Notes under the pieces: model-generated
Seen by the model: only the letters and a program-made list of their open reading frames with translations
Told to the model about the DNA's origin: nothing
Database searches by the model: none
Shown here: one piece after another, positions 2,521-19,445 of the stretch
Numbering within the stretch: the first letter of the stretch is position 1
Layout of the letters: every line of letters begins with the position of its first letter
From: Blautia sp.
GTDB taxonomy: Bacteria > Bacillota > Clostridia > Lachnospirales > Lachnospiraceae
Reading direction: 5' to 3'
Assembly: GCA_017515945.1 (NCBI GenBank)
Contig: JAFWDX010000305.1
Location: 1-19,445 of the forward strand
Length of the DNA: 19,445 nt
Made by a program: the position numbers and the translations under genes

Positions 2521-2555
2521 GTAACTTTGAAGGAGCTTGTTGCGGAACCAGTTAC
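2521..2555 (+). repeat. interspersed repeat copy 1, solo right end
   Basis: A 35-bp copy of the right end, GTAACTTTGAAGGAGCTTG...CCAGTTAC, more diverged than the others. GTAACT and AGTTAC at the tips are inverted repeats. It begins two bases after the stop codon of the LytR_C gene. The 8-mers on either side do not match, so no target duplication is visible. Confidence 0.75.
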
Positions 2556-2605
2556 AGATAGTGTATGAAAAACCGATGAAGAAAGATGGAAAGGAGGTTC
2601 ACCAT

Positions 2606-2929
2606 ATGACAAAAAAGAACAGGTATCTGAGATATATCGTTTTGGGTCTTGCTGCCGTTGCGGCTGTCATCGCTTTTGCTGTTTTTATGATCAGGCGTCA
2701 TGAGGAGGATGACTTTGAGGACTTTGAAGATTTCGAAGATTTCGAGGAGTCGGGATCCTCTGAGGCCAAAGAGGATCAGGTAAAAGGATCCGTGCATGCC
2801 GAAGAAAACGGCGACGATTTTGAAGACTGGGATACCGCAGCGGAGGACGACACGGAAGAGTTGTCTGAGCGGATTTCGGAGGACCTGGCTGCTGCTGTGG
2901 AAGAGGCTGCTTCCGGAACAGAGGAATAG
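2606..2929 (+). CDS. small acidic single-pass membrane protein, unknown
   Basis: Encodes 107 aa. I chose the ATG at 2606 because AAAGGAGG at 2590-2597 is well spaced; an upstream TTG at 2537 would put the start inside the repeat copy. Residues 9-29 form a membrane segment after MTKKNRYLRY. The rest is very acidic and includes the run DFEDFEDFEDFE, encoded by four tandem 9-bp units at 2711-2746, plus a second DDFEDWD patch. No catalytic motif and no family recognised. It follows the LytR_C gene on the same strand and ends just before a strong terminator, so it is probably the last gene of the envelope group. Confidence 0.75.
   Translation: MTKKNRYLRYIVLGLAAVAAVIAFAVFMIRRHEEDDFEDFEDFEDFEESGSSEAKEDQVKGSVHAEENGDDFEDWDTAAEDDTEELSERISEDLAAAVEEAASGTEE
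2711..2746 (+). repeat. 4 x 9-bp in-frame tandem repeat (Asp-Phe-Glu)
   Basis: GACTTTGAG, GACTTTGAA, GATTTCGAA, GATTTCGAG in a row, with synonymous differences. The repeat lies inside the small acidic membrane protein gene and encodes alternating Asp-Phe-Glu; being in multiples of three it can expand or shrink without breaking the frame. Confidence 0.85.
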
Positions 2930-2942
2930 GATAACAGAAGAT

Positions 2943-2985
2943 AAAAAGCTGTAAAAAAGTCGTTGAGACTTTTTTGCAGCTTTTT
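2943..2985 (+). terminator. strong Rho-independent terminator, possibly bidirectional
   Basis: A 19-bp stem (AAAAAGCTGTAAAAAAGTC, 2943-2961) pairs with 2967-2985 through a 5-nt loop GTTGA, with only one G-U pair. T-runs sit in the 3' arm. It separates the envelope group from maf. Confidence 0.92.
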
Positions 2986-3027
2986 GCAGGATATAAGGCT
3001 TGTCTGCCTGGTAATTATTACAGTATT

Positions 3028-3684
3028 ATGAATAAAAATGTGAAATCAGTCATTCTTGCATCCGCATCACCCCGCAGAAAAGAACTGCTTTCTCTGGCCG
3101 GTATCGACTTTGATATTCGGCCTGCTGTTGGGAAGGAGCTGTATATCGCTTCACAGCCGGATGGGATCGTGAAAGAGCTTTCTCAGCATAAGGCACAGGA
3201 AGCGGCTGCAAACCTTGACAAAGAGGGCAGTCCGGACGGCGCGTGCTGGGTGATCGGCGCGGATACGATCGTCTATGCCCATGGAAGGATCCTTGGAAAG
3301 CCTGCCGATGAGGAGGAAGCGGCTGCCACTCTGCGCCTGCTTCAGGACAGCACGCATCAGGTATATACCGGCGTCATGGTGATGTACAGAGAAAGTCCCG
3401 GACAGGACTGGCGTCAGGTGGTCTTTGACGAAAAAACGGATGTAACCTTTTATCCGGTGAGCGATGAAGAGATCGCAGCCTACGTTTCCACAAAGGATCC
3501 TATGGACAAAGCCGGCAGTTATGCGATACAGGGCCCATGGGCAGTGTATGTGCGCGGTATATGCGGTGATTACAACAATGTCGTCGGACTGCCTCTTGCC
3601 CGGCTGATCCATGAGGCCAAAGCTGCCGGTTTTCCGCTTCCGCGGCGGCCAGGTATTTCGGGAGGGCTTATTGAAGAATGGTAA
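3028..3684 (+). CDS. maf: Maf family nucleotide pyrophosphatase
   Basis: Encodes 218 aa. Maf proteins hydrolyse non-canonical or regulatory nucleoside triphosphates (dTTP/UTP or methylated forms) to monophosphates in the cytoplasm. Seen: the opening SVILASASPRRKELLSLAG (the SxSPRRxxLL phosphate loop), VIGADTIV, LGKPADEEEAAATLRLL, HQVYTGV, and the closing block MDKAGSYAIQG...GDYNNVVGLPLARL, all in family order. Length is close to the usual 190-210 aa plus a short tail. The ATG at 3028 has no clear ribosome site; a TTG at 2974 in the same frame lies inside the terminator and is rejected. The stop codon TAA (3682-3684) is part of the GTAAC tip of a repeat, and the next gene starts at 3678, overlapping by 7 bases. 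Confidence 0.92.
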   Translation: MNKNVKSVILASASPRRKELLSLAGIDFDIRPAVGKELYIASQPDGIVKELSQHKAQEAAANLDKEGSPDGACWVIGADTIVYAHGRILGKPADEEEAAATLRLLQDSTHQVYTGVMVMYRESPGQDWRQVVFDEKTDVTFYPVSDEEIAAYVSTKDPMDKAGSYAIQGPWAVYVRGICGDYNNVVGLPLARLIHEAKAAGFPLPRRPGISGGLIEEW

Positions 3685-4379
3685 CTGTACAGTCAGCACC
3701 CGAGGTGCGTAAGAAAAATATTCACGGATGTATTTTTGACCTGGATGGTACCCTGCTGTACACGCTTCAGTCCATGGCTGTACCGGCTAACCGCATGCTG
3801 CAGGAGCTTTCGCTGAAGGAACAGCCGGTGGAGAACTATCGCTATTACTGCGGAGACGGTGCGGACAATCTGGTCCGCAGGGTCCTTGCGGCAAGCGGGG
3901 ATCCGGAGGCAAAGCTGTTTGATCAGGCTTATCCTCTGTATATGAAATATTTCAATGACGATCCCATGCTGGGCGTGACCAGGTTCCCGGGCATCGGAGA
4001 GACACTGGAGCAGATGAAGCAGATGGGGATCGGACTTGCAGTCTGTTCCAATAAACCGGACGAAGCGGCCGGAAGGGTGATCGCCGATATGTTTCCCGGC
4101 ATTTTTACGACAGTGATCGGTCAAAGCAATGCCGTCAGGCGCAAACCGGCTCCGGACACACCTTTTATGGCAGCGGCCAGGCTTGGAGTCACTCCCGGAG
4201 AGTGTATGTATGTGGGAGATTCCGGTACGGATATGCGTACAGGGAAAGCCGCAGGCATGTTTACAGTCGGAGTGCTGTGGGGATACAGAGACCTGCAGGA
4301 ACTGCGGGAGAACGGGGCGGATGAGACGGTCCGTGAGCCGGCAGATCTGCTGCGCTTTCTGACTATAGAAAAACAGTAA
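3678..4379 (+). CDS. HAD-superfamily phosphatase, phosphoglycolate phosphatase-like
   Basis: Encodes 233 aa. HAD motifs in order: FDLDGTL (nucleophile D21, D23), VCSNKP (motif II Ser), a Lys in VRRKPAPD (motif III), and YVGDSGTDM (motif IV acids). The helical cap between residues about 30 and 95 fits the Gph/PgmB-type branch. Substrate cannot be fixed from sequence: 2-phosphoglycolate, a sugar phosphate or pyrophosphate are possible. GGGAGG lies about 12 bases before the ATG, inside the end of maf, so translation is probably coupled. Odd: codons 2-10 (VTVQSAPEV) are read from an interspersed repeat copy, and the stop TAA (4377-4379) lies in the first bases of another copy. Both ends of the gene are therefore shaped by repeat insertions. 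Confidence 0.88.
   Translation: MVTVQSAPEVRKKNIHGCIFDLDGTLLYTLQSMAVPANRMLQELSLKEQPVENYRYYCGDGADNLVRRVLAASGDPEAKLFDQAYPLYMKYFNDDPMLGVTRFPGIGETLEQMKQMGIGLAVCSNKPDEAAGRVIADMFPGIFTTVIGQSNAVRRKPAPDTPFMAAARLGVTPGECMYVGDSGTDMRTGKAAGMFTVGVLWGYRDLQELRENGADETVREPADLLRFLTIEKQ
3681..3708 (+). repeat. interspersed repeat copy 2, left-end derivative at the maf/HAD junction
   Basis: GTAACTGTACAGTCAGCACC followed by CGAGGTGC matches the left end of the family, with GCACC/GGTGC forming a small hairpin. It supplies the maf stop codon and is read through as codons 2-10 of the HAD gene. No right end and no matching flanks are visible, so this is a truncated or decayed copy. Confidence 0.75.
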
Positions 4380-4472
4380 CTGTACAGTCAGTACCTCGCA
4401 TTTGCTGCGAGGGATGTGAGAAAGAAGCTGAAATAATCGTAACTCTGAAGGAGCTTGTGACTGAACAGTTAC
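4376..4472 (+). repeat. interspersed repeat copy 3, 97 bp, left and right ends
   Basis: Left end GTAACTGTACAGTCA at 4376, with an internal hairpin CCTCGCA-TTTGC-TGCGAGG (4394-4412). The right-end unit at 4439-4472 (GTAACTCTGAAGG...GAACAGTTAC) is flanked by perfect 8-bp direct repeats AAATAATC at 4431-4438 and 4473-4480. Caution: similarity partly continues past the 8 bp (TAAC follows one base later on both sides), so an old local duplication is an alternative. The element provides the HAD stop codon and fills most of the gap before glnS. Confidence 0.85.
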
Positions 4473-4541
4473 AAATAATCATAACAGATGAACAGATAAT
4501 CATAGTATTTACATCATATATCCGCGAATCAGGAGGAAAGA

Positions 4542-6209
4542 ATGGAAAACGAGAACACATCCAGAAATTTTATCGAAATGATCATCGACAAAGATCTGCA
4601 GGAAGGGACATATGACGCTGTCTGCACCCGCTTCCCTCCGGAACCGAACGGATATCTGCATATCGGACATGCCAAATCCATTCTGTTGAATTATGGTCTC
4701 GCTCAGGAGTACCATGGCAAATTCAACATGCGCTTTGATGACACCAATCCTACCAAGGAAAAGACGGAGTTTGTCGAGTCGATCAAAGAGGATATACAGT
4801 GGCTCGGTGCGGACTGGGAAGACAGGCTTTATTTCGCTTCCGACTATTTTCCGAGGATGTATGACGCGGCAGTGCGTCTGATCAAAAAAGGAAAGGCTTA
4901 TGTCTGTGATCTTACGGCAGATCAGATCCGGGAGTACCGAGGTACGCTTACCGAGCCGGGCAAAGAAAGCCCATACCGGAACCGGTCCGTGGAGGAAAAC
5001 CTGGCTCTGTTCGAACAGATGCGGGATGGTGTCTACGGAGACGGTGAGAAGGTCCTGCGGGCCAAAATCGATATGGCTTCCCCGAATATGAATATGCGTG
5101 ATCCGGTGATCTACCGGATCGCGCACATGAACCATCACCGGACGGGAGATACCTGGTGCATTTATCCGATGTACGATTTTGCCCATCCGCTGGAGGATGC
5201 CTTTGAAGGCGTGACCCATTCGATCTGTACGCTGGAGTTTGAAGATCATCGTCCGCTGTACGACTGGGTCGTCCATGAGGTGGATCTCTTTGAAAAGCCG
5301 CCTAAACAGATCGAGTTTGCCAAGCTGTATCTGACCAATGTGGTCACCGGCAAGCGCTATATCAAAAAGCTGGTGGAGGACGGGATCGTAGACGGATGGG
5401 ACGATCCCAGGCTGGTCAGCATTGCCGCCCTGCGCCGCAGGGGCTTCACACCCGAATCCATCCGCATGTTCGTCGATCTGGTCGGCGTGTCCAAGGCCAA
5501 CAGCTCCGTGGATTATGCCATGCTCGAATACTGCATCCGCGAAGATCTCAAGCTCAAGGCTCCCCGTATGATGGCCGTGCTTGATCCGATCAGACATGTC
5601 ATTGACAATTATCCGGAAGGACAGACCGAAATGCTCCCGGTGGCCAACAATGCCGAAAATCCGGAGCTCGGCACCAGGGAGGTGCCCTTCTCCCGCGAAC
5701 TGTATATCGAGCGGGAGGATTTTATGGTCGAACCGCCGAAGAAATATAAACGCCTGTATCCCGGCGCCGAGGTCCGGCTCATGAACGCATATTTTGTCAC
5801 AGCTGTCAGCTGGGAGGCGGACGACGACGGGACAGTCCGGACAGTGCACTGCACATATGATCCCGCAACCAGAGGCGGCAACGCACCGGACGGGCGTAAG
5901 GTAAAGGGCACGATCCACTGGGTAAATGCAGGGACAGCCGTGCCTGTCAAGGCAAGGCTCTATGAGAACATCGTTGACGAAGAAAAAGGCGTGTACAATA
6001 AAGAGGATGGAAGCCTGAACCTGAATCCGGATTCCCTGAAGGAATGCGAAGCGTATGTGGAGCCGATGCTTGCAGAAGCAAAGGCCTATGACCGCTTTCA
6101 GTTTGTACGGAACGGATTTTTCTGCGCGGACGTTCGTGACAGCGCGCCGGGCGCGCCGGTGTTTAACCGGATCGTTTCGCTGAAGAGCTCATTTAAGCTG
6201 CCGATGTGA
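4542..6209 (+). CDS. glnS: glutaminyl-tRNA synthetase
   Basis: Encodes 555 aa, the usual bacterial GlnRS length. It charges tRNA-Gln with glutamine in the cytoplasm. Seen: [16 protein letters not shown] with the HIGH motif at residues 40-43, MRFDDTNP (ATP and amino-acid pocket), [31 protein letters not shown], and [16 protein letters not shown]. The C-terminal half carries the beta-barrel anticodon domain with the typical KGTIHWV and [11 protein letters not shown] strands. The class I KMSKS loop appears as VTGKR (268-272) rather than the common MSKR; I believe this is a lineage variant, because everything around it is intact. AGGAGG lies 5 bases before the ATG. A strong terminator follows the stop. 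Presence of GlnRS means Gln-tRNA need not rely on the GatCAB route. Confidence 0.96.
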
Positions 6210-6210
6210 T

Positions 6211-6260
6211 AAAAAGGGAGCCGGTTGGTGAAATGTATTTCACCAACCGGTTCCTTTTTT
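6211..6260 (+). terminator. strong Rho-independent terminator after glnS
   Basis: AAAAAGGGAGCCGGTTGGTG (6211-6230), extended by AAA, pairs with 6238-6260 around a TGTA loop with one bulge, and ends in CCTTTTTT. It starts two bases after the glnS stop. Confidence 0.95.
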
Positions 6261-6270
6261 ATGAAAATAA

Positions 6271-6457
6271 GTAATTGTTCCGTCAGCACCTCGCATTTAC
6301 TGCGACACCGCAGGCGTGCCTTGGCAGGTGCGTGGAACAAAAGCTCAATAGTCAAGGCCAGGCGCACTTTCAATGAGATGAAAGGGGCCTGCGCCTCCCA
6401 AGGGACGCCTTCGGTGTGGCCTCGCAACTGTGAAGGAGCTTGTGACTGAACAGTTAC
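6271..6457 (+). repeat. interspersed repeat copy 4, longest copy (187 bp), MITE-like
   Basis: Left end GTAATTGTTCCGTCAGCACC, right end TGTGACTGAACAGTTAC. Inside, ACACCGCAGGCGTGCCTTGG pairs with CCAAGGGACGCCTTCGGTGT, and further in AGGCGCA...TGCGCCT encloses CTTTCA-ATGAGA-TGAAAG, so the whole element folds as one long palindrome. It is flanked by GAAAATAA (6263-6270) and GAAAATAG (6458-6465), an 8-bp direct repeat with one mismatch, as expected for a target-site duplication. No open frame of note. It lies just after the glnS terminator and before the promoter region of the next gene. Confidence 0.92.
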
Positions 6458-6534
6458 GAAAATAGCTGTTACATACCCCTCGCTCCCTGTATGCTATAGT
6501 ATACGCAAATAAAGGGAAAGAGGGGGGATCGGTT

Positions 6535-7884
6535 ATGCGCGCAGGAAAGGCATGTGCGGCGGTTCTCAGCCTGCTGGTCACAGCTGCTGCCTGTTGCTGT
6601 CCGGCATCTGCCCGGGAGCAGGGTTTCAGAAATAACAGAGAAAATAATCTGATACCGCTGGACGAGGAGGAATGGGGTGTCCCGCAGGATGAGCAGGGCT
6701 TCACGTTTGACGGGGAGGAAGAAGAAAATACCATCGCATCATTTACAGTGAACCCGGATCAGCTGGATTTCGGGACTGTTTTCGCCGGCTATACACAGCA
6801 GAGACGACCGGCTTTTGAGGTAGAGGTGACGAATACGGGAGATACGCTCCTCAACCTGATGGAGCCCGTAAGCGCCAATGGCTGGTTTGAGTCTTCCGTT
6901 CCGGAAACTCTTTCCCTGGCGCCCGGAGAGGAGACTGTATTTACACTCGTACCGGTAGTCGGTCTGGAGCCGGATGTCTATGATGACGAGATCACTTTTG
7001 CCTGCACCGATCATGCCTGCGACCCACAGACCGTGTACGTGGACCTGACTGTGACGGAGCCGGAAATGGATCTGACGGGCATAGAGATACCTGTCATGGA
7101 TGATGCTCTTCCCAATGGTACGGTTAAAAATGCACAGGATCTTGGCCTTCCGGACACATTGACGATCCATACGACGCAGGAGGATCTGGAAGCGGCCGTT
7201 CACTGGAAGCTGGAGGACTGTGCCTATAATCCGGAATCCATTGATGAGCAGACATTTGACGTAGTCGGGGAAGTGATCCTTCCTGACGGAGTAGGCAATC
7301 CTGACGGGATCGATACACTTGTGGAAGTACAACTGTTCGTGGCGGCAAGGATTCCTTATCATGCGGATCCATCTTTATCCCGGATCACCGGTATTGATGC
7401 CGGAGGAGAGTATACGACACAGACGAGGCTTACGTTCACAGCCCTGGGAGACGGGTGTGACAACGAACGGCCGATGGAAGGAGACACACGGTTTATGCCG
7501 ACGGGATGGAAAGTCCTGGAAAGCAGGACCTTTGAAAAAGGAACGCAGACGGCTTCCTTCCGGATCGCGAAAGCCGGCGGCTTCACACTTTCCGTCATCT
7601 TTAAAGAAGAGAAATATGACGGCAGCGAATGGCATGCCTCAGGTCTCCAGGATACAAAGCAGGTGAATTTTCACATTAAAAACGCTCCGGACAGCGAGGC
7701 TCTCCCGCCTGCCAAAACCAAAGACGCCAGTGTGGCAGGGACACGCATGATAAAACCGGTGATCACAGAGGATGCGTCCGGTTCCGTAAAGTATTATGTG
7801 GGTCTGATGCTGCTTGCGGCAACGGCGTTCATGACGATCATGGTATTGAGAAAAACCGACTCTGTCAGCACTCAAAACAAATGA
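6535..7884 (+). CDS. membrane-anchored cell-surface protein with beta-sandwich repeats
   Basis: Encodes 449 aa. Residues 1-26 are a signal peptide (hydrophobic core LSLLVTAAACCCPA, cleavage near ASA). Residues about 65-175 look like a HYDIN/ASPM-type immunoglobulin-like fold: FTVNPDQLDFGTVFAGYTQ, VEVTNTGD, ETLSLAPGEETVFTLVP. Residues about 185-270 resemble bacterial Ig-like domains (QTFDVVGEVILPDGVGNPDG). A further beta region follows. Residues about 422-440 (KYYVGLMLLAATAFMTIMVL) form a C-terminal membrane anchor with a basic stop signal; no LPxTG motif is seen. Probably displayed on the cell surface; ligand unknown. AGAGGGGGG gives a ribosome site just before the ATG. The last codons (VSTQNK, stop) overlap the CIRCE operator of htpG. 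Confidence 0.8.
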   Translation: MRAGKACAAVLSLLVTAAACCCPASAREQGFRNNRENNLIPLDEEEWGVPQDEQGFTFDGEEEENTIASFTVNPDQLDFGTVFAGYTQQRRPAFEVEVTNTGDTLLNLMEPVSANGWFESSVPETLSLAPGEETVFTLVPVVGLEPDVYDDEITFACTDHACDPQTVYVDLTVTEPEMDLTGIEIPVMDDALPNGTVKNAQDLGLPDTLTIHTTQEDLEAAVHWKLEDCAYNPESIDEQTFDVVGEVILPDGVGNPDGIDTLVEVQLFVAARIPYHADPSLSRITGIDAGGEYTTQTRLTFTALGDGCDNERPMEGDTRFMPTGWKVLESRTFEKGTQTASFRIAKAGGFTLSVIFKEEKYDGSEWHASGLQDTKQVNFHIKNAPDSEALPPAKTKDASVAGTRMIKPVITEDASGSVKYYVGLMLLAATAFMTIMVLRKTDSVSTQNK

Positions 7885-7891
7885 GTGCTAA
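7865..7891 (+). promoter_or_regulatory. CIRCE operator (HrcA binding site) for htpG
   Basis: TCAGCACTC, nine bases, GAGTGCTAA. The consensus is TTAGCACTC-N9-GAGTGCTAA; only one base of the left arm differs and the spacer is exactly nine. It lies seven bases upstream of the -35 of the htpG promoter and overlaps the end of the upstream surface-protein gene, whose TGA stop is at 7882-7884. HrcA represses chaperone genes through this site. The HrcA gene itself is not in the window. Confidence 0.92.
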
Positions 7892-7898
7892 TTTTCCC

Positions 7899-7927
7899 TT
7901 GACAAGAGGCTCTTTTCGCGATACTAT
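7899..7927 (+). promoter_or_regulatory. htpG promoter
   Basis: TTGACA (7899-7904), 17-nt spacer, TACTAT (7922-7927): a perfect -35 and a good -10 for the housekeeping sigma factor. Start of transcription is expected near 7934, a few bases before repeat copy 5 begins, giving a leader of about 165 nt. Confidence 0.85.
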
Positions 7928-7937
7928 AACTTTCGTT

Positions 7938-8052
7938 GTAATTGTTCAGTCAGCACCTTGCATTTACTGCGACACCGCAGTCGTGCCCTGGCAGGTGCCT
8001 GGGAATAATCCAACAGTCGTAACTGTGAAGAAACTTGTGACTGAACAGTTAT
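7938..8052 (+). repeat. interspersed repeat copy 5 (115 bp) in the htpG leader
   Basis: Left end GTAATTGTTCAGTCAGCACC, part of the inner arm (CACCGCAGTCGTGCCCTGGC), then the right end GTAACTGTGAAG...TGACTGAACAGTTAT. The middle is deleted compared with copy 4. It should lie entirely inside the 5' untranslated RNA of htpG and can fold into a hairpin. Flanking 8-mers do not match. Confidence 0.85.
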
Positions 8053-8062
8053 CATACTACAT

Positions 8063-8088
8063 GCAGCCGCCGGCTGCAGCGAAAGGAG
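8063..8088 (+). promoter_or_regulatory. GC-rich leader hairpin next to the htpG ribosome site
   Basis: GCAGCCG-C-CGGCTGC (8063-8077) is a perfect 7-bp inverted repeat followed three bases later by the ribosome site GAAAGGAG (8081-8088). It does not cover the ribosome site, so a thermosensor role is only a guess. Confidence 0.4.
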
Positions 8089-8098
8089 TTGGCAACAT

Positions 8099-10210: not shown

Positions 10211-10218
10211 TAGACTTT

Positions 10219-10273
10219 GTAACTGTTCAGTCAGCACTTCGCATTTACTGTGAGGTGCTGACTGTACAGTTTC
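10219..10273 (+). repeat. interspersed repeat copy 6 (55 bp), hairpin and possible htpG terminator
   Basis: GTAACTGTTCAGTCAGCACT is followed by CGCATTTACTGTGA and GGTGCTGACTGTACAGTTTC, giving a stem of over 20 bp with a TTTAC-type loop. The 8-mers outside are TAGACTTT (10211-10218) and TAGATTTT (10274-10281), 7/8 identical, consistent with a target duplication. It starts 8 bases after the htpG stop and is followed by T-rich DNA, so it may also terminate htpG transcription. Confidence 0.88.
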
Positions 10274-10320: not shown

Positions 10321-10322
10321 GC

Positions 10323-10351: not shown

Positions 10352-10403
10352 GCGTATGAAACAGAAACAGTCAGATTGTTCCCGTGGGGATACAAGAAGG
10401 AGG

Positions 10404-10464
10404 ATAACTGTTCGATCAGCGTCTGGCCTCGTAACTGTGAAGGAGGCTGTGATTGAACAGTTAC
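10404..10464 (+). repeat. interspersed repeat copy 7 (61 bp) with perfect 8-bp flanks
   Basis: Left end ATAACTGTTCGATCAGC, a short middle, then the right end GTAACTGTGAAGGAGGCTG...TGATTGAACAGTTAC. Both sides carry GAAGGAGG (10396-10403 and 10465-10472), a perfect 8-bp target-site duplication. The terminal arms have changed together relative to other copies (CAGTCA/TGACTG has become CGATCA/TGATTG), keeping base pairing. Confidence 0.9.
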
Positions 10465-10508
10465 GAAGGAGGAGCTTCGGGAGCTGAGGTATGAAAGGAG
10501 TTTTTGTT

Positions 10509-10841: not shown

Positions 10842-10875
10842 GTAACTGTGAAGGCGTCTGTGACTGAACAGTTAC
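10842..10875 (+). repeat. interspersed repeat copy 8, 34-bp solo right end
   Basis: GTAACTGTGAAGGCGTCTGT, GACTGAACAGTTAC; the tips GTAACTGT/ACAGTTAC form an 8-bp stem. It begins 9 bases after the Spo0A_C gene stop. Flanks AGATAAATC and AGATCGATC agree at 7 of 9 bases, too weak to call a target duplication. Confidence 0.85.
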
Positions 10876-11896: not shown

Positions 11897-11975
11897 GAAA
11901 CGACCGTAAACTAAAATATGAAAAATATGAAAAGAAAAATCAGAAAACAGGTAAAATGATTTGTCGCTAAAGCTC

Positions 11976-12004: not shown

Positions 12005-12047
12005 GTAGCATGAAAATTTATGCATATACTCAGTTAAAGGAGACTAT

Positions 12048-13334
12048 ATGGGAATCCTGATCAAAGGTGGAACAGTGACAGACCCGGCAGCGGGGCTTAA
12101 TGGAAAAACAGATGTCCGCATAAAGGATGGTCTGATCGTGCAGGTCGGTGAGGACCTGAAACCGGAAGGAGACGACGCTGTACTTGATGCGTCAGGTCTT
12201 TGCGTGCTTCCCGGACTGGTGGACATGCATGTTCATCTGAGGGATCCGGGTCTGACGGACAAGGAGGATCTCTGCAGCGGAAGCAGGGCGGCGGCCAGGG
12301 GCGGCGTGACAACGCTGCTGGCCATGCCGAATACCAGGCCCGTGATCGATACCCCGGACCGTGCGGCTTATGTGCTCAACAAGGCACAGGAGGTCAGTCC
12401 GGTTCATATCCTCCAGGCGGGATCATTGACCCGTGGAGAGGAGGGCAGGGAGCTCTCGGATATTGCCGGGATGGCCCGGGCGGGAGTGAAGGCTCTTTCT
12501 GAGGACGGCAAATCCGTGATGGATGCCGGTCTGTGCAGACAGGCTTTTGCGCAGGCGGCAGCGTGCGGCCTGCTGGTGTGCGATCATTGTGAGGACCTGT
12601 CGATCCGCGGCAACGGCTGCATGAATGAGGATGAAAATGCCAGGCGTCTGGGTCTTGACGGTATCCCGGCCAGTGTGGAGGACACGATCACAGCCCGGGA
12701 TATGATCCTGGCAGCGGAGACCGGAGCCAGGCTGCATTTATGCCATGTCTCCACCGAGGGGGTAACCAGGCTCCTGCGCTTCGCGCGGGAAAACGGCTGG
12801 GAGCAGGTGAGCGCGGAGGTCTGTCCCCATCATCTGCTGCTCTCCTCTGATGATATACCGGGCGATGATCCGGATTACAAGATGAACCCGCCCCTGCGGA
12901 CTCCGAGGGATGTGCAGGCACTGCGTGAAGCCCTGGCTGCGGGGCTGATCGATGTGATCAGTACGGATCACGCGCCGCACACACAGCGCGACAAGGAGGG
13001 CTCCATGCGTACGGCGGCCTTTGGCATTGTCGGACTGGAGACGAGCCTGCCCCTGATCTATACGTATCTGGTGAGAACAGGCATCCTGACCCTGTCCCAG
13101 ATGGTGGAGAAGATGAGCCTTAACCCGGCCAGACTCCTGGGACTGCCCTGTGGCACACTGCTGCCAGGTCATCCGGCGGATGTGATCCTGGTGGATCTTG
13201 AGACGCCATACCGGATCGACCGTTCCTCCTTTGTCTCTAAAGGCAGAAATACGCCTTTTGACGGCTGGGAGGTCAGGGGAAAGGTGATGGTGACGATCGT
13301 TGACGGGAAAATAGTATATAAAGACAAGGAGTGA
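12048..13334 (+). CDS. pyrC: dihydroorotase, class I
   Basis: Encodes 428 aa, normal for the class I enzyme. Closes carbamoyl-aspartate to dihydroorotate, step 3 of UMP synthesis, in the cytoplasm. Metal ligands visible in order: DMHVHLRDPG (H61, H63), LSEDGKSV (D153, the bridging acid of the bacterial type I form), CDHCED (H180), LCHVSTEG (H233) and STDHAPH (D307, catalytic). MNPPLR supplies substrate-binding residues. AAAGGAG precedes the ATG. It is the first gene of the pyr group; the next gene starts 4 bases after its stop. Carbamoyl-phosphate synthetase and aspartate transcarbamylase genes are not in the window. Confidence 0.96.
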   Translation: MGILIKGGTVTDPAAGLNGKTDVRIKDGLIVQVGEDLKPEGDDAVLDASGLCVLPGLVDMHVHLRDPGLTDKEDLCSGSRAAARGGVTTLLAMPNTRPVIDTPDRAAYVLNKAQEVSPVHILQAGSLTRGEEGRELSDIAGMARAGVKALSEDGKSVMDAGLCRQAFAQAAACGLLVCDHCEDLSIRGNGCMNEDENARRLGLDGIPASVEDTITARDMILAAETGARLHLCHVSTEGVTRLLRFARENGWEQVSAEVCPHHLLLSSDDIPGDDPDYKMNPPLRTPRDVQALREALAAGLIDVISTDHAPHTQRDKEGSMRTAAFGIVGLETSLPLIYTYLVRTGILTLSQMVEKMSLNPARLLGLPCGTLLPGHPADVILVDLETPYRIDRSSFVSKGRNTPFDGWEVRGKVMVTIVDGKIVYKDKE

Positions 13335-13338
13335 GACC

Positions 13339-14259
13339 ATGATCGACAGACTGACTGAAGCTATCAGAAAAACCGGCGCTCCCGTGGTGGTGGGACTGGA
13401 TCCGATGCTGGATTATATTCCCGCCCCCATCTGCAGCGATGCCTTTGCACAGGCCGGCCAGACCCTTGAGGGGGCGGCCCTGGCCATCTGGAATTTCAAC
13501 AAGGGGATCGTGGACGCCATCGCCGGCCTGGTTCCGGCTGTGAAGCCGCAGATCGCCATGTATGAACAGTTCGGTCTGCCCGGGCTGGAAGCGTATAAAA
13601 GGACCATTGATTACTGCCATGAGAAAGGACTGCTCGTGATCGGGGATGTCAAGAGGGGCGATATCGGCTCTACTTCCGCGGCTTATGCGGTCGGTCATCT
13701 CGGCAGGGTCCGGGTAGGGGACAGCTTCCTGCCTGTTTTTGACGAGGACTTTGCGACAGTCAATCCTTATCTGGGCACAGACGGGATCCGCCCCTTCCTG
13801 GATGTCTGCCGGCAGGAGCATAAAGGGATCTTTGTCCTTGTCAAAACGTCCAATCCCTCCAGCGGTGAGTTTCAGGATCGTCTGACAGATGGCCTGCCTT
13901 TGTATGAACTGGTGGCAGAGAAGGTCGCCGAGTGGGGAGAGGAAGTGATGGGCAGCGTATACAGCAATGTCGGAGCCGTTGTCGGGGCGACCTACCCGGA
14001 AATGGGTGCGGCTGTGCGCCGGCTCATGCCCAAAGCTTTTATCCTGGTCCCGGGTTACGGCGCTCAGGGAGGCAAGGGTTCAGACCTGGCGCCCTTCTTT
14101 AATGAAGACGGACTCGGAGCCATCGTAAATTCATCCCGCGGCATCATTGCCGCCTGGCGTCAGGAGAAATACAGCTCCTTTGGAGCTGATGCCTATGCGG
14201 ATGCGTCCAGGCAGGCGGTCCTGGATATGATCGAAGATATCAGGCAGGCTGTAGGATAA
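13339..14259 (+). CDS. pyrF: orotidine 5'-phosphate decarboxylase, long (type 2) form
   Basis: Encodes 306 aa, matching the roughly 270-310 aa PyrF subfamily rather than the 230 aa form. Removes CO2 from OMP to give UMP. Seen: VVVGLDPMLDYIP, FNKGIVDAIAG, AVKPQIAMYEQFG, the catalytic strand VIGDVKRGDIGSTSAAYA (Asp-x-Lys-x-x-Asp), TVNPYLGTDGI, and the phosphate-site VPGYGAQGG. AAGGAG at the end of pyrC serves as ribosome site, so translation is coupled to pyrC. A solo repeat copy follows 12 bases after the stop. Confidence 0.95.
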   Translation: MIDRLTEAIRKTGAPVVVGLDPMLDYIPAPICSDAFAQAGQTLEGAALAIWNFNKGIVDAIAGLVPAVKPQIAMYEQFGLPGLEAYKRTIDYCHEKGLLVIGDVKRGDIGSTSAAYAVGHLGRVRVGDSFLPVFDEDFATVNPYLGTDGIRPFLDVCRQEHKGIFVLVKTSNPSSGEFQDRLTDGLPLYELVAEKVAEWGEEVMGSVYSNVGAVVGATYPEMGAAVRRLMPKAFILVPGYGAQGGKGSDLAPFFNEDGLGAIVNSSRGIIAAWRQEKYSSFGADAYADASRQAVLDMIEDIRQAVG

Positions 14260-14271
14260 TAATGAAGGCGC

Positions 14272-14305
14272 GTAACTGTGAAGGAGCTTGTGACTGAACA
14301 GTTAC
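14272..14305 (+). repeat. interspersed repeat copy 9, solo right end inside the pyr operon
   Basis: A 34-bp right-end copy, GTAACTGTGAAGGAGCTTGT, GACTGAACAGTTAC, matching the family consensus exactly. It lies in the 74-bp gap between pyrF and pyrK and would form an 8-bp stem in the operon mRNA. Flanking 8-mers do not match. Confidence 0.9.
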
Positions 14306-14333
14306 AAAATACCGCGGAAAGGAATCTAAATCT

Positions 14334-15125
14334 ATGAATCAGATTTTTCAGGAGCACTGCAGGGTACTTTCCCAGGAGGAGCTGGCACCGGGGATCTTCA
14401 GTCTGTGGCTGCAGACGGAAGGGATCGCGGCGGCCGCACGTCCGGGGCAGTTTGTCAGCCTGTATTGCCGGGACCGGCAAAAGCTGCTGCCGAGACCGGT
14501 GAGCCTTTGTGAGATCGACAGAAAGACAGGTGCCCTGCGGCTGGTATACCGGGTCACGGGACCAGGAACCGGGACGGAGGAGTTTTCACGTCTCGCCACG
14601 GGAGAAGAGATCCGGATACTTGGCCCGCTGGGCAACGGCTTCCCGCTTGAAGAGGCGGAAGGCAGGCGGACGATCCTGGTGGGCGGCGGTATAGGGATCC
14701 CGCCCATGCTGGGGGCGGCAAAGGCGCTGACCGCGGGAGGATTCCGGCCGCAGGCCGTACTGGGGTATCGGGATAATCTGTTTCTGAAAGAGGACTTTGA
14801 AGCCAGGGTCTCAGTCGTAACTGCGACGGAGGACGGGAGCTGTGGCTGGCACGGAACAGTGCTGGATGCCATAAAGGGCGAAGCGATGGATCCTGAGATC
14901 ATATTTGCCTGTGGCCCCAGACCTATGCTCAAAGCTTTGGCTGCATATGCTGCGGAAAGGAATATCCCGTGCTGGATATCCATGGAGGAGCGGATGGCCT
15001 GCGGGGTCGGCGCATGCCTGGGCTGTGTCTGTGAGACAGCTGCCGTGGATGATCATTCACATGTACATAACGCCAGGGTCTGTACCGACGGCCCGGTTTT
15101 TCTGAGCAGGGAGGTGGTCCTTTGA
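14334..15125 (+). CDS. pyrK: dihydroorotate dehydrogenase electron-transfer subunit
   Basis: Encodes 263 aa. PyrK carries FAD and a [2Fe-2S] cluster and passes electrons from the PyrD class 1B flavoprotein to NAD+. Seen: RPVSLCEID (FAD-binding RxYS/T-type loop, residues about 54-62), the nucleotide-binding GGGIGIPPML (117-126), FACGPRPML, and C-terminal cysteines C223, C228 and C231 in MACGVGACLGC, with C250 as the likely fourth ligand. AAAGGA about 11 bases upstream is a moderate ribosome site. The stop overlaps the pyrD start by 4 bases, fitting a two-protein complex made in equal amounts. Confidence 0.95.
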   Translation: MNQIFQEHCRVLSQEELAPGIFSLWLQTEGIAAAARPGQFVSLYCRDRQKLLPRPVSLCEIDRKTGALRLVYRVTGPGTGTEEFSRLATGEEIRILGPLGNGFPLEEAEGRRTILVGGGIGIPPMLGAAKALTAGGFRPQAVLGYRDNLFLKEDFEARVSVVTATEDGSCGWHGTVLDAIKGEAMDPEIIFACGPRPMLKALAAYAAERNIPCWISMEERMACGVGACLGCVCETAAVDDHSHVHNARVCTDGPVFLSREVVL

Positions 15126-16027
15126 GCGCAATGGAAGTCACTCTGGCCGGCGTGACTCTTAAAAATCCCGTTATGACCGCGTCCGGTACCTTCGGATCAG
15201 GTATGGAATATGCCGCGTTCGGGGACCTGGGCAGGCTGGGGGCCGTAGTTACCAAGGGTGTGGCAGCGGTTCCGTGGCCGGGCAATCCGGTGCCCCGGGT
15301 GGCCGAGACACCGTCCGGCATGCTCAATGCCATCGGACTGCAGAATCCGGGCGTGGAGGTTTTCTGCACCCGTGACCTGCCATTTTTAAAACAGTTTGAT
15401 ACAAAGGTCATCGTCAACGTATGCGGACATTCCGAGGCCGAATACTGTGAGGTGGTGGAGCGGCTTTCTGAGGAGCCGGTCGACCTGCTCGAGATCAATG
15501 TCTCCTGTCCGAATGTGAAAGAGGGCGGGATCGCGTTCGGCCAGGATCCGGCGGCTCTTTCCGCCATCACGCGCAGTGTGAAACGCCTGGCCCGCCAGCC
15601 GGTGATCATGAAGCTCAGCCCAAATGTCACGGACATTGCCCTGATGGCCAAAACGGCTCAGGATGCCGGTGCCGACGCGATTTCCCTGATCAATACCCTC
15701 CTGGGTATGAAGATCGATATCTACCGGCGTCAGTTCGTCCTTGCCAACCGCACCGGAGGCCTGTCCGGGCCGGCGATCCATCCGGTGGCCGTGCGCATGG
15801 TATATCAGGCTGCACAGGCTGTACAGATCCCCATTATCGGAATGGGAGGGATCGCATCGGCCGCGGATGCGCTGGAAATGATGATGGCCGGGGCGACAGC
15901 AGTCAGCGTAGGAACGGCGACTTTTGCGGATCCGCTTACGGTCTTTAAGATCGCCCGGGATATGGAGGCTTTTGCCGAGACGCAGGGGATCAGGGATATC
16001 CGTGAGATCATCGGTATTGTAAAATGA
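15122..16027 (+). CDS. pyrD: dihydroorotate dehydrogenase, class 1B catalytic subunit
   Basis: Encodes 301 aa. Oxidises dihydroorotate to orotate with FMN, step 4 of the pathway, in complex with PyrK. Seen: LKNPVMTASGTFGSG, TKGVAAVPWPGNPVPR, GMLNAIGLQNPG, and INVSCPNVKEGG with the catalytic Cys (C129), which marks class 1 rather than the membrane class 2 enzyme. LSGPAIHPVAVRMV and GMGGIASAADALEMMMAGA form the FMN phosphate site. I chose the TTG at 15122: GGAGG lies exactly 7 bases upstream, whereas the ATG at 15131 would be 16 bases away. The TTG start gives a TTGA overlap with the pyrK stop. Confidence 0.95.
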   Translation: MSAMEVTLAGVTLKNPVMTASGTFGSGMEYAAFGDLGRLGAVVTKGVAAVPWPGNPVPRVAETPSGMLNAIGLQNPGVEVFCTRDLPFLKQFDTKVIVNVCGHSEAEYCEVVERLSEEPVDLLEINVSCPNVKEGGIAFGQDPAALSAITRSVKRLARQPVIMKLSPNVTDIALMAKTAQDAGADAISLINTLLGMKIDIYRRQFVLANRTGGLSGPAIHPVAVRMVYQAAQAVQIPIIGMGGIASAADALEMMMAGATAVSVGTATFADPLTVFKIARDMEAFAETQGIRDIREIIGIVK

Positions 16028-16050
16028 AGAAATATAAGGAGTATGCATAT

Positions 16051-16731
16051 ATGGAACAGTACAAGCAGGATTTTATAGAGTTTATGGTTGAGTCGGAGGT
16101 CCTCCGTTTCGGGGACTTTATGACTAAATCCGGCAGGAATACTCCCTTTTTTGTCAATACAGGGTTTTATCGTACCGGATCTCAGCTTTCCCGCCTCGGT
16201 GAGTATTACGCGCGGGCGATCCACAGCGCCTTTGGGCTGGATTTTGACGTCCTGTTCGGACCGGCGTACAAGGGCATTCCTCTGTCGGTAGCGGCCTCGA
16301 TCGCGGCCAGTTCCCTGTACGGCGCGGATCTGCGTTACTGCTGCAACCGTAAGGAGATCAAGGATCACGGTGACAAGGGGATCCTGTTGGGGAGTCCTTT
16401 AAAGGATGGCGACAGGGTGGTGATCATTGAGGACGTGACAACAGCCGGCACATCTATTCGGGAAACTGTGCCGATCCTGCGTTCGCAGGCAGATGTGGAC
16501 ATCATCGGGCTGGTGGTATCTGTGGACAGGATGGAGAGGGGAACCGGCGACAAGAGCGCGCTGGCAGAGATCTCGGAGGAATTCGGCCTGCAGACCACGG
16601 CGATCGTCACCATGAAAGAGGTTGTCGAATACCTTTACAACAGACCACTCAAAGGCCGTGTGCTGATCGACGAAGATATGAAACGCGCCATTGATGCTTA
16701 TTATCAGAAATACGGCGCGTCAGAGAGGTGA
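16051..16731 (+). CDS. pyrE: orotate phosphoribosyltransferase
   Basis: Encodes 226 aa. Joins orotate and PRPP to give OMP, the step before PyrF. Seen: FGDFMTKSGRNTPFFVN (orotate side), FGPAYKGIPLS, YCCNRKEIKDHG (flexible catalytic loop), and the PRPP motif VVIIEDVTTAGTSIRE. The ATG at 16051 has AAGGAG 9 bases before it and gives the usual MEQYKxDFxEFMV start. An in-frame ATG at 16024 would overlap the pyrD stop (ATGA) and add nine residues; it is less likely. The gene is followed by a 50-aa membrane protein only 6 bases later. Confidence 0.95.
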   Translation: MEQYKQDFIEFMVESEVLRFGDFMTKSGRNTPFFVNTGFYRTGSQLSRLGEYYARAIHSAFGLDFDVLFGPAYKGIPLSVAASIAASSLYGADLRYCCNRKEIKDHGDKGILLGSPLKDGDRVVIIEDVTTAGTSIRETVPILRSQADVDIIGLVVSVDRMERGTGDKSALAEISEEFGLQTTAIVTMKEVVEYLYNRPLKGRVLIDEDMKRAIDAYYQKYGASER

Positions 16732-16737
16732 GACAGG

Positions 16738-16890
16738 ATGAATGAGAAGGTTTTCAGAACCATGAATCAGGCGGGAACCGTTTCTTTGGTGCTCGGGATC
16801 CTGACTGTGGTCACGGGCGTCGTGACAGGGGTGCTGCTGATCATTCACGGCGCCATGCTCCTTAGGGAGAAGAAAGAGGTACTTTTTTAA
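16738..16890 (+). CDS. 50-aa small membrane protein
   Basis: A short frame of 50 codons plus stop, directly after pyrE. GAGAGG lies about 9 bases before the ATG. The product starts MNEKVFRTMNQAGTVSL and has one long hydrophobic stretch (VSLVLGILTVVTGVVTGVLLII, residues about 15-36), rich in Gly, Val and Thr, ending in a charged LLREKKEVLF tail, so it is a single-pass or hairpin membrane peptide. Tight spacing, a good ribosome site and a following membrane-protein gene support its being real. Function unknown. Confidence 0.7.
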   Translation: MNEKVFRTMNQAGTVSLVLGILTVVTGVVTGVLLIIHGAMLLREKKEVLF

Positions 16891-16892
16891 AT

Positions 16893-16909
16893 TGTGACTG
16901 AGCAGTTAC
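16893..16909 (+). repeat. interspersed repeat copy 10, right-end remnant
   Basis: TGTGACTGAGCAGTTAC is the last 17 bp of the family right end with one change. The rest is missing. It lies 2 bases after the stop of the 50-aa gene. Confidence 0.65.
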
Positions 16910-16952
16910 GAACAGAGATACCTGTTATAAACGTGCCGGGAGGTGACAGGCA

Positions 16953-17267
16953 ATGGCAAAACGGTATCGATACGCCTTTACCAGGAAAAAGGAAGCTGCA
17001 GGGGGCAAGTGGTCAGTGGCGATGGCCGTGATTTCCGTGCTTCTGCTTCCTGCCTCGGTTTTTTATGCGTTTCTGAATGGTGGAGATAAGCCTTATATCA
17101 CGGGAGGGCTGTGCCTGCTGGCCGCCCTTTTGTCTGTATATGGCTTTTTTCTCGGACTGGGCAGCTTTAAAGAAAAAAACACAGGTCATCTGGCCAGCAT
17201 CGTAGGTTCCCTCGCAAACGGGGTCATTTCGATCGTCTGGCTGGGGATCTATCTGTCGGGGGTATAG
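16953..17267 (+). CDS. small three-pass membrane protein, unknown
   Basis: Encodes 104 aa. GGGAGGTGAC gives a strong ribosome site. A basic N-terminus (MAKRYRYAFTRKKE) is followed by three hydrophobic segments at residues about 20-41, 49-70 and 80-102. It resembles small uncharacterised membrane proteins of Lachnospiraceae (DUF6142-like, from memory and not verified). It sits between the 50-aa membrane protein and the aminopeptidase, five bases before the latter, so it is probably in the same transcript. Confidence 0.75.
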   Translation: MAKRYRYAFTRKKEAAGGKWSVAMAVISVLLLPASVFYAFLNGGDKPYITGGLCLLAALLSVYGFFLGLGSFKEKNTGHLASIVGSLANGVISIVWLGIYLSGV

Positions 17268-17271
17268 GATT

Positions 17272-19320
17272 ATGGAGGAATGGATCCGGGAGCGATATGC
17301 ACTGGCAGCGGGGCGCGTGAAGCAGATCCGCGCAGAGTGCGGTGCGAAGGCGCCGTTTGATGATTTTTTCCGTCGGGAAGCAGCTTTCCTGACGCTGGCC
17401 GCAGAGGCTGTGCCGGCGTACAGCGGTGCAGGAGAAATGCCTGCGTTACAGGCCTGTCAGGAAAGAAACCGTATGCTTTATGAGGAACTGCTGCCGGAAA
17501 ACTATGCCGCTTGTTATGGAAACCCTGCCTTTGCGGTAAGCCGGCTGGGGGAATATGGCCGGCTTTTTTCATTTTTATACAGAGAGCTGAGAGGCATCAC
17601 AGGCTTTGCGGCGGAGGGACGGCTTCAGGATGTGACCATTCTCCTGGAACTGTTTTCGGAGATCCATGCCTCGTTCTGCCAGGAGGAGATCCCTTCACCG
17701 GCACAGATGCAGGATGATCTGCTTTCATACATCATGGATTATTGCCAGGAGATGGTGGAGGCTCATGTGCGGGAGGGGCTTGACCCTGACTGCGATTTTG
17801 CCCTGCGGATCGTGCAGGAGGCGGATCTGTCGGATCTGCGCTATCTGTATCGGTACGGAGAGTATGTCTCTGAGGATGAACTGGGTACGGCCGCTTTTCT
17901 GAACAGCCTTGGTGAGGACGAGATCCGCGACATGGCCGCTATATTTACCGGAGGCTTTAAACGGGGATTTATCGCCGGCCGCAAGGATCTTGGCAAAAAA
18001 AAGACCGTGCAGATCCGGTACCATCTCGGCTTTGAACGGCTGGTACGTGAAGCCGTGAGGCAGTTCGGTGAAATGGGGCTTTCCTGTATTCTGACCCGCC
18101 AGCCTCTGCGGGCTGTGTGCCGGTCGTCGAGAGGCGTTGCCGGCTATACCGGCGGGACTGTAAATCCTCAGTTCCAGTATGATCATCTGCAGGATGATGC
18201 GCTGTTCCTGAGCGAGGATTTCGTGAGCAGGAAGCTCCGGGCTCTGCAGACCGCATACGAAAAGTATAAAACGGCCGCGTCCGTCTATGCCGGACCTGCC
18301 CTCATTGAGACCTTTGGCGAGCCGGTCTTTGACCCGGATCCATGCCCCGATGCGCTCAGCCTGAGTCCACAGCAGCAGAGCCTGCTCTCCCGGCTCAGGG
18401 GGGAGGCTGCCCGGATCACGGAAAGGTATATCCGCTCGGAGGAGAGAAGCTTCACTATTATTGCATGGCCGCTGCCATCGATTTCGGAAAAATATCCGGA
18501 GATCTTCCGCGAGGTGACCCGGATCAACGCCCTCGATAACGCCAGGTATCAGGAGATCCAGCAGCGCCTTATTGACAGACTGGACAGCTGTGAGTGGGTC
18601 CAGGTCCTCGGCAGAGGGAGCAATGAGACGGACCTGATCATTCATCTGCATGAACTGAAGCATCCGGTGCGCCAGACCAATTTCGAAAACTGTACGGCGG
18701 ATGTGAACATTCCTGCCGGAGAGGTTTTCACTTCTCCGCAGCTGGCCGGCACAGGCGGAACGCTCCATGTATCGGGAGTCTATCTGAATGGCCTGTACTT
18801 CAAGGACCTCAGGCTGGTTTTTGACTGCGGGCAGGTGATCGATTACTCCTGCGCCAATTTTGATTCCGAAGAAGAGAATCGGCGCTATATCGAGGATAAC
18901 ATTCTTTTCCATCATCCGCGGATCCCAATGGGAGAATTTGCCATCGGCACCAACACCGCAGCCTATGCGCTCGTGCGCAGGTACGGGATTGAGGACCGGC
19001 TGCCCATCCTGATCGCGGAAAAAATGGGCCCCCATTTTGCGGTCGGGGATACCTGCTACAGCAGGGAAGAGGATCACAAGGTCTATAATCCGGACGGGAA
19101 AGAGATCATCGCGCGGGACAACGAGATCTCGGCCCTGCGGCAGGAGGATCCTGAGCTGGCTTATTTTGACTGCCATACGGACATTACTCTTCCCTATGCG
19201 GAGCTGGGCAGCATCAGTGTCATCGACGACGACGGAGAAAGCCACCCGCTGCTGGAGAACGGGCGCTTTGTCCTGCCGGGGACCGAAGCGCTCAATGAAC
19301 CGCTGGAAGGACTGGAGTGA
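17272..19320 (+). CDS. M29-type metallo-aminopeptidase with long N-terminal extension
   Basis: Encodes 682 aa. The C-terminal part (residues about 395-682) matches the thermophilic aminopeptidase (AmpS/PepS, M29) family, which removes N-terminal residues from peptides using two metal ions in the cytoplasm. Likely ligands and catalytic residues: E484 in NIPAGEVFTSP, E555 in GEFAIGTN, H588 and Y596 in EKMGPHFAVGDTCY, and H635 and D637 in FDCHTDI. Typical family members are about 410 aa; here about 270 extra residues, mostly helical and without known motifs, precede the enzyme. The start ATG has only a poly-G stretch (CGGGGG) about 10 bases upstream, so it may rely on coupling to the previous gene, 5 bases away. 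No clear terminator follows. Confidence 0.88.
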   Translation: MEEWIRERYALAAGRVKQIRAECGAKAPFDDFFRREAAFLTLAAEAVPAYSGAGEMPALQACQERNRMLYEELLPENYAACYGNPAFAVSRLGEYGRLFSFLYRELRGITGFAAEGRLQDVTILLELFSEIHASFCQEEIPSPAQMQDDLLSYIMDYCQEMVEAHVREGLDPDCDFALRIVQEADLSDLRYLYRYGEYVSEDELGTAAFLNSLGEDEIRDMAAIFTGGFKRGFIAGRKDLGKKKTVQIRYHLGFERLVREAVRQFGEMGLSCILTRQPLRAVCRSSRGVAGYTGGTVNPQFQYDHLQDDALFLSEDFVSRKLRALQTAYEKYKTAASVYAGPALIETFGEPVFDPDPCPDALSLSPQQQSLLSRLRGEAARITERYIRSEERSFTIIAWPLPSISEKYPEIFREVTRINALDNARYQEIQQRLIDRLDSCEWVQVLGRGSNETDLIIHLHELKHPVRQTNFENCTADVNIPAGEVFTSPQLAGTGGTLHVSGVYLNGLYFKDLRLVFDCGQVIDYSCANFDSEEENRRYIEDNILFHHPRIPMGEFAIGTNTAAYALVRRYGIEDRLPILIAEKMGPHFAVGDTCYSREEDHKVYNPDGKEIIARDNEISALRQEDPELAYFDCHTDITLPYAELGSISVIDDDGESHPLLENGRFVLPGTEALNEPLEGLE

Positions 19321-19326
19321 TGTCTC

Positions 19327-19359
19327 CTGTGTGCTACTGTGCGATAACAGTTGACACAG
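19327..19359 (+). promoter_or_regulatory. inverted repeat overlapping a -35 site
   Basis: CTGTGT-GCT-ACTGT-GCGATA-ACAGT-TG-ACACAG: two nested inverted-repeat arms of 6 and 5 bp. The right side contains the TTGACA of the downstream promoter. It could be an operator, or an RNA hairpin after the aminopeptidase gene; no T-run follows. Confidence 0.45.
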
Positions 19360-19379
19360 AGAAGTGAATTATTTACAAT
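19351..19379 (+). promoter_or_regulatory. strong promoter at the window end
   Basis: TTGACA (19351-19356), 17 nt, TACAAT (19374-19379): perfect -35 and a 5/6 -10. Start is expected near 19386. The gene it serves lies beyond the window; the transcript runs straight into repeat copy 11. Confidence 0.85.
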
Positions 19380-19388
19380 AATGTGATC

Positions 19389-19445
19389 GTAACTGTTCAG
19401 TCACAAGCTCCTTCACAGTTACGAGGCCACACCGAAGGCGTCCCT
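19389..19445 (-). repeat. interspersed repeat copy 11, reverse orientation, cut by window end
   Basis: GTAACTGTTCAGTCACAAGC, TCCTTCACAGTTACGAGGCC and ACACCGAAGGCGTCCCT form the exact reverse complement, bar one base, of the right 57 bp of the longest copy (6401-6457). It is the only clearly reversed copy here and is probably a long form that continues past the window. Confidence 0.9.

Follow-up and report, generated by a model that had tools for sequence, protein, structure and literature searches.

The 19,445-nucleotide contig of Blautia sp. considered here (GenBank assembly GCA_017515945.1, contig JAFWDX010000305.1; this whole stretch is called the window below) carries eleven copies of a short interspersed repeat that is abundant in the genome at large. 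These repeats are a family of miniature inverted-repeat transposable elements (MITEs) inserted with exact 8-bp duplications of their target, and we place at roughly four in five the probability that they are non-autonomous DDE transposons bearing the ends of the ISBst12 group, i.e., of IS66 insertion sequences (ISs) with one open reading frame (ORF). A reading of the window from its letters alone (the sequence-only reading) had already recognized a structured family with inverted ends, a size series and a placement in gaps near stop codons, all of which stand, while missing the transposon nature, the 8-bp duplications and the IS66/ISBst12 ends. The most surprising part of the picture lies outside the window, where palindromes of 30 bp look like complete transposons.

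Target duplications and mobility

The genome of the window (G000; 2,625,352 bases in 518 contigs, 79% complete) was surveyed in 117 contigs (618 kb), namely the window, 20 contigs picked for carrying the repeat and 96 not so picked; 71 kb of the 431 kb in these 96 contigs is masked as N, and counts there are lower bounds. Every instance of the 34-bp right end (the 34-mer, with at most eight mismatches) was taken and paired with the nearest left end upstream, and such a pair was classed as a full copy. This yielded 54 full copies and 72 34-mers to which no separate left end belonged. Eighteen of these 72 are preceded by MITE-like sequence and were set aside as truncated, leaving 54 solo copies.

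The flanks of 27 of the 52 testable full copies are identical over exactly 8 bp, as compared with 0.6 for shuffled pairs, and those of 34 agree at seven or more of the eight positions (null 0.8); not one full copy shows flank identity at lengths of 4-7 or 9-12 bp. When the same measure is applied to 34-mers nested in full copies, just one of 53 reaches 7/8, as expected if the outer ends alone are insertion boundaries. The target preference is mild, with G in 27 and A in 37 of 48 cases at the first two of the eight bases. Further, three copies (L124 7173, L186 1738 and L150 180) share one insertion site, the 8-bp sequence GATCGCGC within a second repeat family, and deleting them from the sequence yields, across the junction, that of unoccupied copies of this repeat; in L186 one flank has GATCGTGC in place of GATCGCGC. 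This second repeat (..GCCTCTGCATATACCGCGCGGAAAACCAGGTACATTTTCCATTTATTTGATCGCGCGAGTATAA) is itself interspersed in many copies in G000 contigs (L102 2154-2230, L135 3524-3600, L270, L277 and L267). A third repeat (..CTGATTGAGACGGACCACTA, also present as a close variant; its ends are apparently inverted) lies inside two of the MITE copies (L094 4864-5168 and L177 2272-2799), which suggests nested insertion.

Terminal sequences and the link to IS66

GTAA ends and 8-bp target duplications are features of IS66 elements. The ends of the full-length MITEs begin with GTAAC and extend to the ISBst12-type GTAACNNTTCAG, and the MITE end GTAACTGTTCAG fits the ISBst12 group. Sixty genomes of the genus were searched for PF03050, and a scan for GTAA ends in pairs covered 30 loci. 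Both ends with an 8/8 duplication are present in three of these: L230 (GTAACTATTCAG.. and ATATTTTT), L236, with a single transposase of 515 aa (GTAACAGTTCAG.. and CTTCACTT), and L221, which has a different IS66 end type (GTAAGCGTC.. and GATTAATA). L225 has perfect 20-bp ends (GTAAGTGCC) without a duplication, and in the remaining loci the ends were not placed within the fetched flanks. The L236 transposase had tblastn matches in 142 plasmid records; addition of six of these to L230 and L236 gave eight one-ORF IS66 loci, seven of which combine perfect 8-bp duplications with GTAACTATTCAG-type ends (the ends of the eighth, L324, were not placed). Their end sequences include GTAACTATTCAG, GTAACTGCTCAG and GTAACAGTTCAG, with a Planococcus variant GTAACTACTTAG; among the right-end variants two begin GTATC and one is TTCAC. 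ISDge4, an active member of the ISBst12 group, has the ends GTGACTACTCAGCA and GTAACTGCTCAGCA and 8-bp direct repeats (PMC12898284).

The MITEs themselves contain no transposase gene, the full copies (61-305 bp) being too short for one and the 145-bp form consisting of hairpins. We infer that an ISBst12-type transposase mobilises them in trans and is either absent from the assembly or not recognised, since no IS with the exact MITE ends was found and the right end of the one IS66 element found in G000 differs. That element, L175 (G000 C266, 26-2855), encodes tnpB, an extra 135-aa ORF and a 628-aa TnpC; it was considered as the driver of the family and dismissed, its right end being unlike the MITE end.

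Several observations weigh against the assignment. No exact MITE end was found beside an IS, and no IS66 transposase with MITE ends was found in G000, in an assembly of 79% completeness from which the partner may be missing; the sole PF03050 match there (L175) has the different right end GTAACGAGCCTGG, and its left end is off the contig. The exact sequence GTAACTGTTCAGTCA occurs in just four other genomes of the 397 of the family, near chance by estimate. Additionally, 11 of the 52 full copies match at only 0-4 of the eight flanking positions, as do both 34-bp copies of the window (10842 and 14272).

Copy number and spread among genomes

The sequence-only reading made its case depend on further copies elsewhere in the genome, and these are many. 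The 15-bp end TGACTGAACAGTTAC has 565 sites in G000 at no more than one mismatch, the two ends of one element each being counted, and the 34-mer has 279 at no more than three; reversed controls give 0 in both cases. The 34-mer was found in five of 64 genomes of the genus (G000 279, G032 2, G027 2, G003 1, G063 1) and is absent from the other 59. At no more than one mismatch the 15-mer has 19 sites in G032, three in G003 and 0-4 in each of the other 58 relatives examined, and a search of 397 family genomes for the exact 15-mer gave 363 sites in G000 and a total of five in four others. With such tiny counts elsewhere, the burst is therefore limited to one sampled species, and the absence of the 34-mer from 59 of the 64 genomes, with one or two sites in four others, suggests that it was recent in the G000 lineage. 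Contig ends fall at copies in 13 of 192 cases (6.6 expected), a weak signal. Carriage by viruses was also considered: a 16-bp end matched 20 IMG/VR loci, but the exact ends are solitary, with no partner end, and were read as chance, and a search of viral contigs that took the congener transposase as query found no relative.

Solo right ends and minimal palindromes

The solo right ends are in many cases flanked by target duplications, which are exact in seven of the 54, hold at 7/8 or better in 14 and at 6/8 or better in 24 (null 0.2, 0.7 and 2.0). At its inner edge the right end has another GTAACTGT, which repeats the left tip in direct orientation, and the last 34 bp of a full copy hence resemble a complete two-ended element. 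The inner tip of the solos reads GTAACTGTGAAGG, without the TTCAG carried by most left ends of full copies and by most of the IS ends; further, solos are more diverged than full copies (a mean of 3.3 vs 1.5 mismatches) and share their orientation bias in gaps between tandem genes (25:7 and 23:5, respectively). On account of these three features, we lean towards regarding most G000 solos as internal deletions between the two GTAACTGT repeats in which the target duplication was kept. The decay envisaged by the earlier reading thus suits the 34-bp forms of G000; it suits less well the 30-bp forms of the sister species G085, where a longer parent with a duplication was not encountered in the loci read.

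Strict two-ended palindromes of the form GTAACNNTTCAG-N(0-14)-CTGAANNGTTAC occur in eight of the 64 genus genomes (10 in G085, six in G032, two in G082 and one in each of five others; reversed control 0), with none in G000. The 23 distinct palindromes with flanks include three with duplications at 8/8, four at 7/8 and three at 6/8 (null 0.3 at seven or more, 0.6 at six or more). Three of these 23 palindromes are right ends nested within longer copies of G032, for which no duplication is expected. In G003, a 27-bp form (L249 4855) is flanked by a perfect GAATAATG duplication; a neighbouring 26-bp form lacks one.

G085 has 172 sites of GTAACAGTTCAGGC at no more than two mismatches vs 77 in the reversed control, from which it follows that many of the weaker sites are chance. 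Thirty loci were analysed, ten from the palindrome search (50-bp flanks) and 20 from the site list (flanks of about 300 bp or more), of which six had been recognizable in that list as close pairs and the other 14 had shown a single end. A unit was called when one end had at most two and the other at most five mismatches at a length of 22-39 bp. The 30 loci hold 27 such units, of which 26 measure exactly 30 bp and one measures 26 bp, while four loci have none; ten of the 14 one-end loci hold a 30-bp unit, in five cases with a duplication of at least 6/8, and the other four account for the empty ones. In total, three duplications match at 8/8, five at 7/8 and eight at 6/8, i.e., 16 of 27 at 6/8 or better (null 0.7). 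In the 20 loci with flanks of about 300 bp, no longer form with good ends and a duplication was found among pairings of up to 600 bp (best two per locus). One longer pairing with good ends does count against the independence of the short form (532 bp, L321, one mismatch at each end), with a duplication of 0/8; the other longer candidates have 4-5 mismatches at one end, and their duplications do not exceed 4/8. From the constant length, the multiple copies, the duplications and the lack of longer duplicated forms in these loci, we infer that the 30-bp palindrome of G085 spread as such, and these palindromes may be minimal transposons. We would give even odds to the broader proposition that palindromes of about 30 bp, consisting of two ISBst12-type ends with next to nothing in between, are the smallest known DDE transposons, spreading independently with 8-bp duplications and arising repeatedly as right ends nested within larger MITEs.

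Mechanistically, a transposase supplied in trans would read some 12-15 bp at each end (GTAACNNTTCAG..) and would insert copies with the 8-bp duplication and the mild GA preference at the first two target positions seen above, the interior being a pair of hairpins that can be lengthened stepwise by a 21-nt module. Slippage between the direct GTAACTGT repeats across the hairpins could then produce the 34-bp copy with its duplication intact, much as solo long terminal repeats form. Where the right end has a complete second GTAACNNTTCAG, as in the sister species G032, the palindrome of 26-37 bp already makes a complete two-ended element.

A serious alternative, to which we give rather less than even odds, is that the 30-bp forms of G085 and the 34-bp forms of G000 are all footprints of an IS or a long MITE that lost its interior by near-precise excision or slippage, nothing of 30 bp having ever moved. 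The G000 solos are in line with this, given their duplications, their greater divergence, the orientation bias shared with full copies, the inner tip without TTCAG and the GTAACTGT direct repeat at both places. It also has a precedent in Tn10, near-precise excision of which leaves two transposon tips between the target duplications as rare deletion products. Such footprints have the same layout as the present palindromes, but differ from a constant-length family without parents: it would be unusual for footprints to far outnumber intact parents and to be, all but one, of a single length. Moreover, the 20 G085 loci with longer flanks lack any longer pairing with both good ends and a duplication, and G085 has no PF03050 match at E <= 0.001, a negative that tells against footprints of a resident IS and also against the IS66 assignment itself. 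Short internal eliminated sequences of Paramecium (about 26-28 bp), which are eukaryotic, are likewise transposon-derived sequences at this size limit; unlike the palindromes considered here, they are known for excision and not for spread by copying.

A 30-bp element should be too short and stiff for the usual meeting of both ends in one transposition complex. Hence, if it moves, the manner in which IS66-type transposases pair their ends comes into question, with two molecules, a hairpin or copying at a fork as conceivable solutions; the transposition mechanisms of the IS66 family have been called insufficiently characterized (PMC12898284). If true, 30-bp movers would join REP-like (repetitive extragenic palindromic) palindromes and MITEs, and G000 offers a natural size series, from about 230 bp down to 17 bp.

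Structure, gene context and orientation

The modular size series noted in the window holds across the genome sample. Lengths of the full copies cluster at 145 (12/54), 166 (12/54) and 187 bp (5/54), 37 of the 54 being within 1 bp of these values, with single copies at 204, 207 and 229 bp. The steps correspond to a 21-nt module (CACCGNAGGCGTNCCTTGGNA), which lies in the hairpin on the left or in one or the other arm of the central one. Folding of the 145-bp form is much more stable than that of shuffled sequences (z -8.3). In an alignment of 20 copies, to which G003 contributed one and G032 four diverged ones, pairing is kept in 94.7% of cells, and the loss of pairing that would have spoken against a structured family is thus not seen. 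Twelve of 41 pairs are altered on both sides (shuffled mean 5.0, none of 500 shuffles reaching 12; slid versions 0-5). Part of this covariation derives from the four diverged copies of G032, which are aligned with less certainty, and the shuffles ignore relatedness. These two-sided changes all fall in the two inner hairpins, with none in the terminal stem.

With gene calls from a simple caller made for this analysis, just one of 54 full copies and eight of 54 solos lie mostly within coding sequence (random 0.84 and 0.87), in agreement with the placement in gaps, often by stop codons, described for the window. A stop lies within 15 bp of the flank for 15/44 full copies and 20/39 solos, and a start for 0/52 and 7/43, respectively. 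The proximity to stops is partly literal, because in 12 of the 126 copies sampled the TAA stop codon is provided by the GTAA end itself. In gaps between tandem genes, 53 of 65 copies (0.82) follow the gene direction (p 3e-7). Asymmetry of the target site was rejected as the cause of this bias, and as target preference predicts just 0.56, selection after insertion is the likely one. Replication direction is a less likely cause: copies agree with contig GC skew in 15 of 27 cases in divergent or convergent gaps and in three of ten cases in tandem gaps whose direction opposes the skew. Over the whole sample, however, 87 of 126 copies agree, and skew is confounded with gene direction on short contigs.

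The same bias, together with the covarying hairpins and the closeness of stops to solo flanks relative to starts, could be taken to mean that the repeats are parts of host regulatory RNAs, such as 3'-UTR (untranslated region) hairpins or terminators, kept by selection and not mobile. We consider this improbable, inasmuch as the duplications, the insertion into another repeat and the species-restricted copy number show mobility, and the orientation bias may itself be selection after insertion.

Comparison with known elements

The ISBst12 group of IS66 (ISGst1, ISDge4 and the plasmid element annotated "IS66-like ISGka4") shares GTAACNNTTCAG-type ends and 8-bp duplications with the present family; the name ISGka4 is given to an ISLre2 element in PMC8024623. 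In the loci read, these ISs measure about 1.5-1.9 kb and have a single transposase ORF, whereas the present elements are noncoding and of about 30-230 bp. Bacterial MITEs such as RUP, NEMIS, Nezha and ERIC are likewise noncoding, with terminal inverted repeats (TIRs), and lie beside genes, and the range given for MITEs is 70-300 bp with TIRs of 15-30 bp (PMC3733652), far above the two-ended palindromes of 26-37 bp. The MITEs compared stem from IS families other than IS66 (PMC3189936, PMC9769881), including MITEPsy1, an element of 100 nt seen to transpose (PMC3189936). A copy-number burst as such is not new, since MITECca01 of a Cardinium endosymbiont underwent a similar lineage-specific burst to 169 copies, mostly intergenic; it derives from the IS982 family, with intact parent copies present (PMC9769881). 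The titles and abstract openings surveyed, mostly outside subscription journals, yielded no description of this family, of an ISBst12-derived MITE or of an element this small.

REP elements are also extragenic multicopy palindromes of 20-40 bp (PMC3733652), and on this likeness the short forms could be single-stranded hairpins moved by a Y1 tyrosine transposase of the REP-associated (RAYT) type, which is very unlikely given the exact 8-bp duplications and the GTAAC at both ends in place of a GTAG/CGTC tag at one, the GTAG type being tied to the Y1 RAYT. Single-strand Y1 transposition is not known to make a target duplication, nor are REP elements known to carry one.

Copies in the window

All eleven copies listed by the sequence-only reading are real and lie where it placed them (Table 1); the description of their ends as inverted repeats of one structured interspersed family is sound, although several copies depart from the consensus that it quoted.

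Table 1. Copies of the MITE family and an associated target duplication in the window
Feature	Position	Strand	Evidence
Degenerate solo right end, 35 bp, 2 bp past the stop of ORF 1766-2518	2521..2555	+	sequence, repeat family, gene call
Left end only	3681..3712	+	sequence
Internally deleted copy, 97 bp	4376..4472	+	sequence
Left target duplication GAAAATAA of the 187-bp copy	6263..6270	+	right copy GAAAATAG at 6458-6465, match 7/8
187-bp copy with two 21-nt modules	6271..6457	+	sequence
Internally deleted copy, 115 bp	7938..8052	+	sequence
55-bp hairpin form, near-perfect palindrome (left end and its mirror)	10219..10273	+	sequence; fold z -8.9
61-bp copy	10404..10464	+	sequence
34-bp solo copy	10842..10875	+	no target duplication visible (0/8)
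34-bp solo copy, identical to the consensus	14272..14305	+	no target duplication visible (3/8)
Right-end remnant, 17 bp	16893..16909	+	sequence
Right part of a longer copy, truncated at the contig end	19389..19445	-	inverted pair in repeat analysis, sequence

A scan of the window with Rfam gave no match to a known structured RNA family above the gathering score. The window is richer in copies than average, with seven of its eleven copies counted by the 34-mer rule in 19 kb vs 59 per 431 kb in the 96 contigs not picked for the repeat (71 kb masked). The 10404 copy has a perfect 8-bp duplication, GAAGGAGG, at 10396-10403 and 10465-10472, and the flanks of the 10219 copy, TAGACTTT and TAGATTTT, match at 7/8. 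The GTAA of the 4376 copy supplies the stop codon (TAA 4377-4379) of a phosphoglycolate-phosphatase-like gene, and that of the 3681 copy the stop codon (TAA 3682-3684) of a Maf-type gene. If the next gene starts at ATG 3678, this latter left end would also encode its N-terminus (MVTVQSAPEV.., by eye; window 3678-3712).

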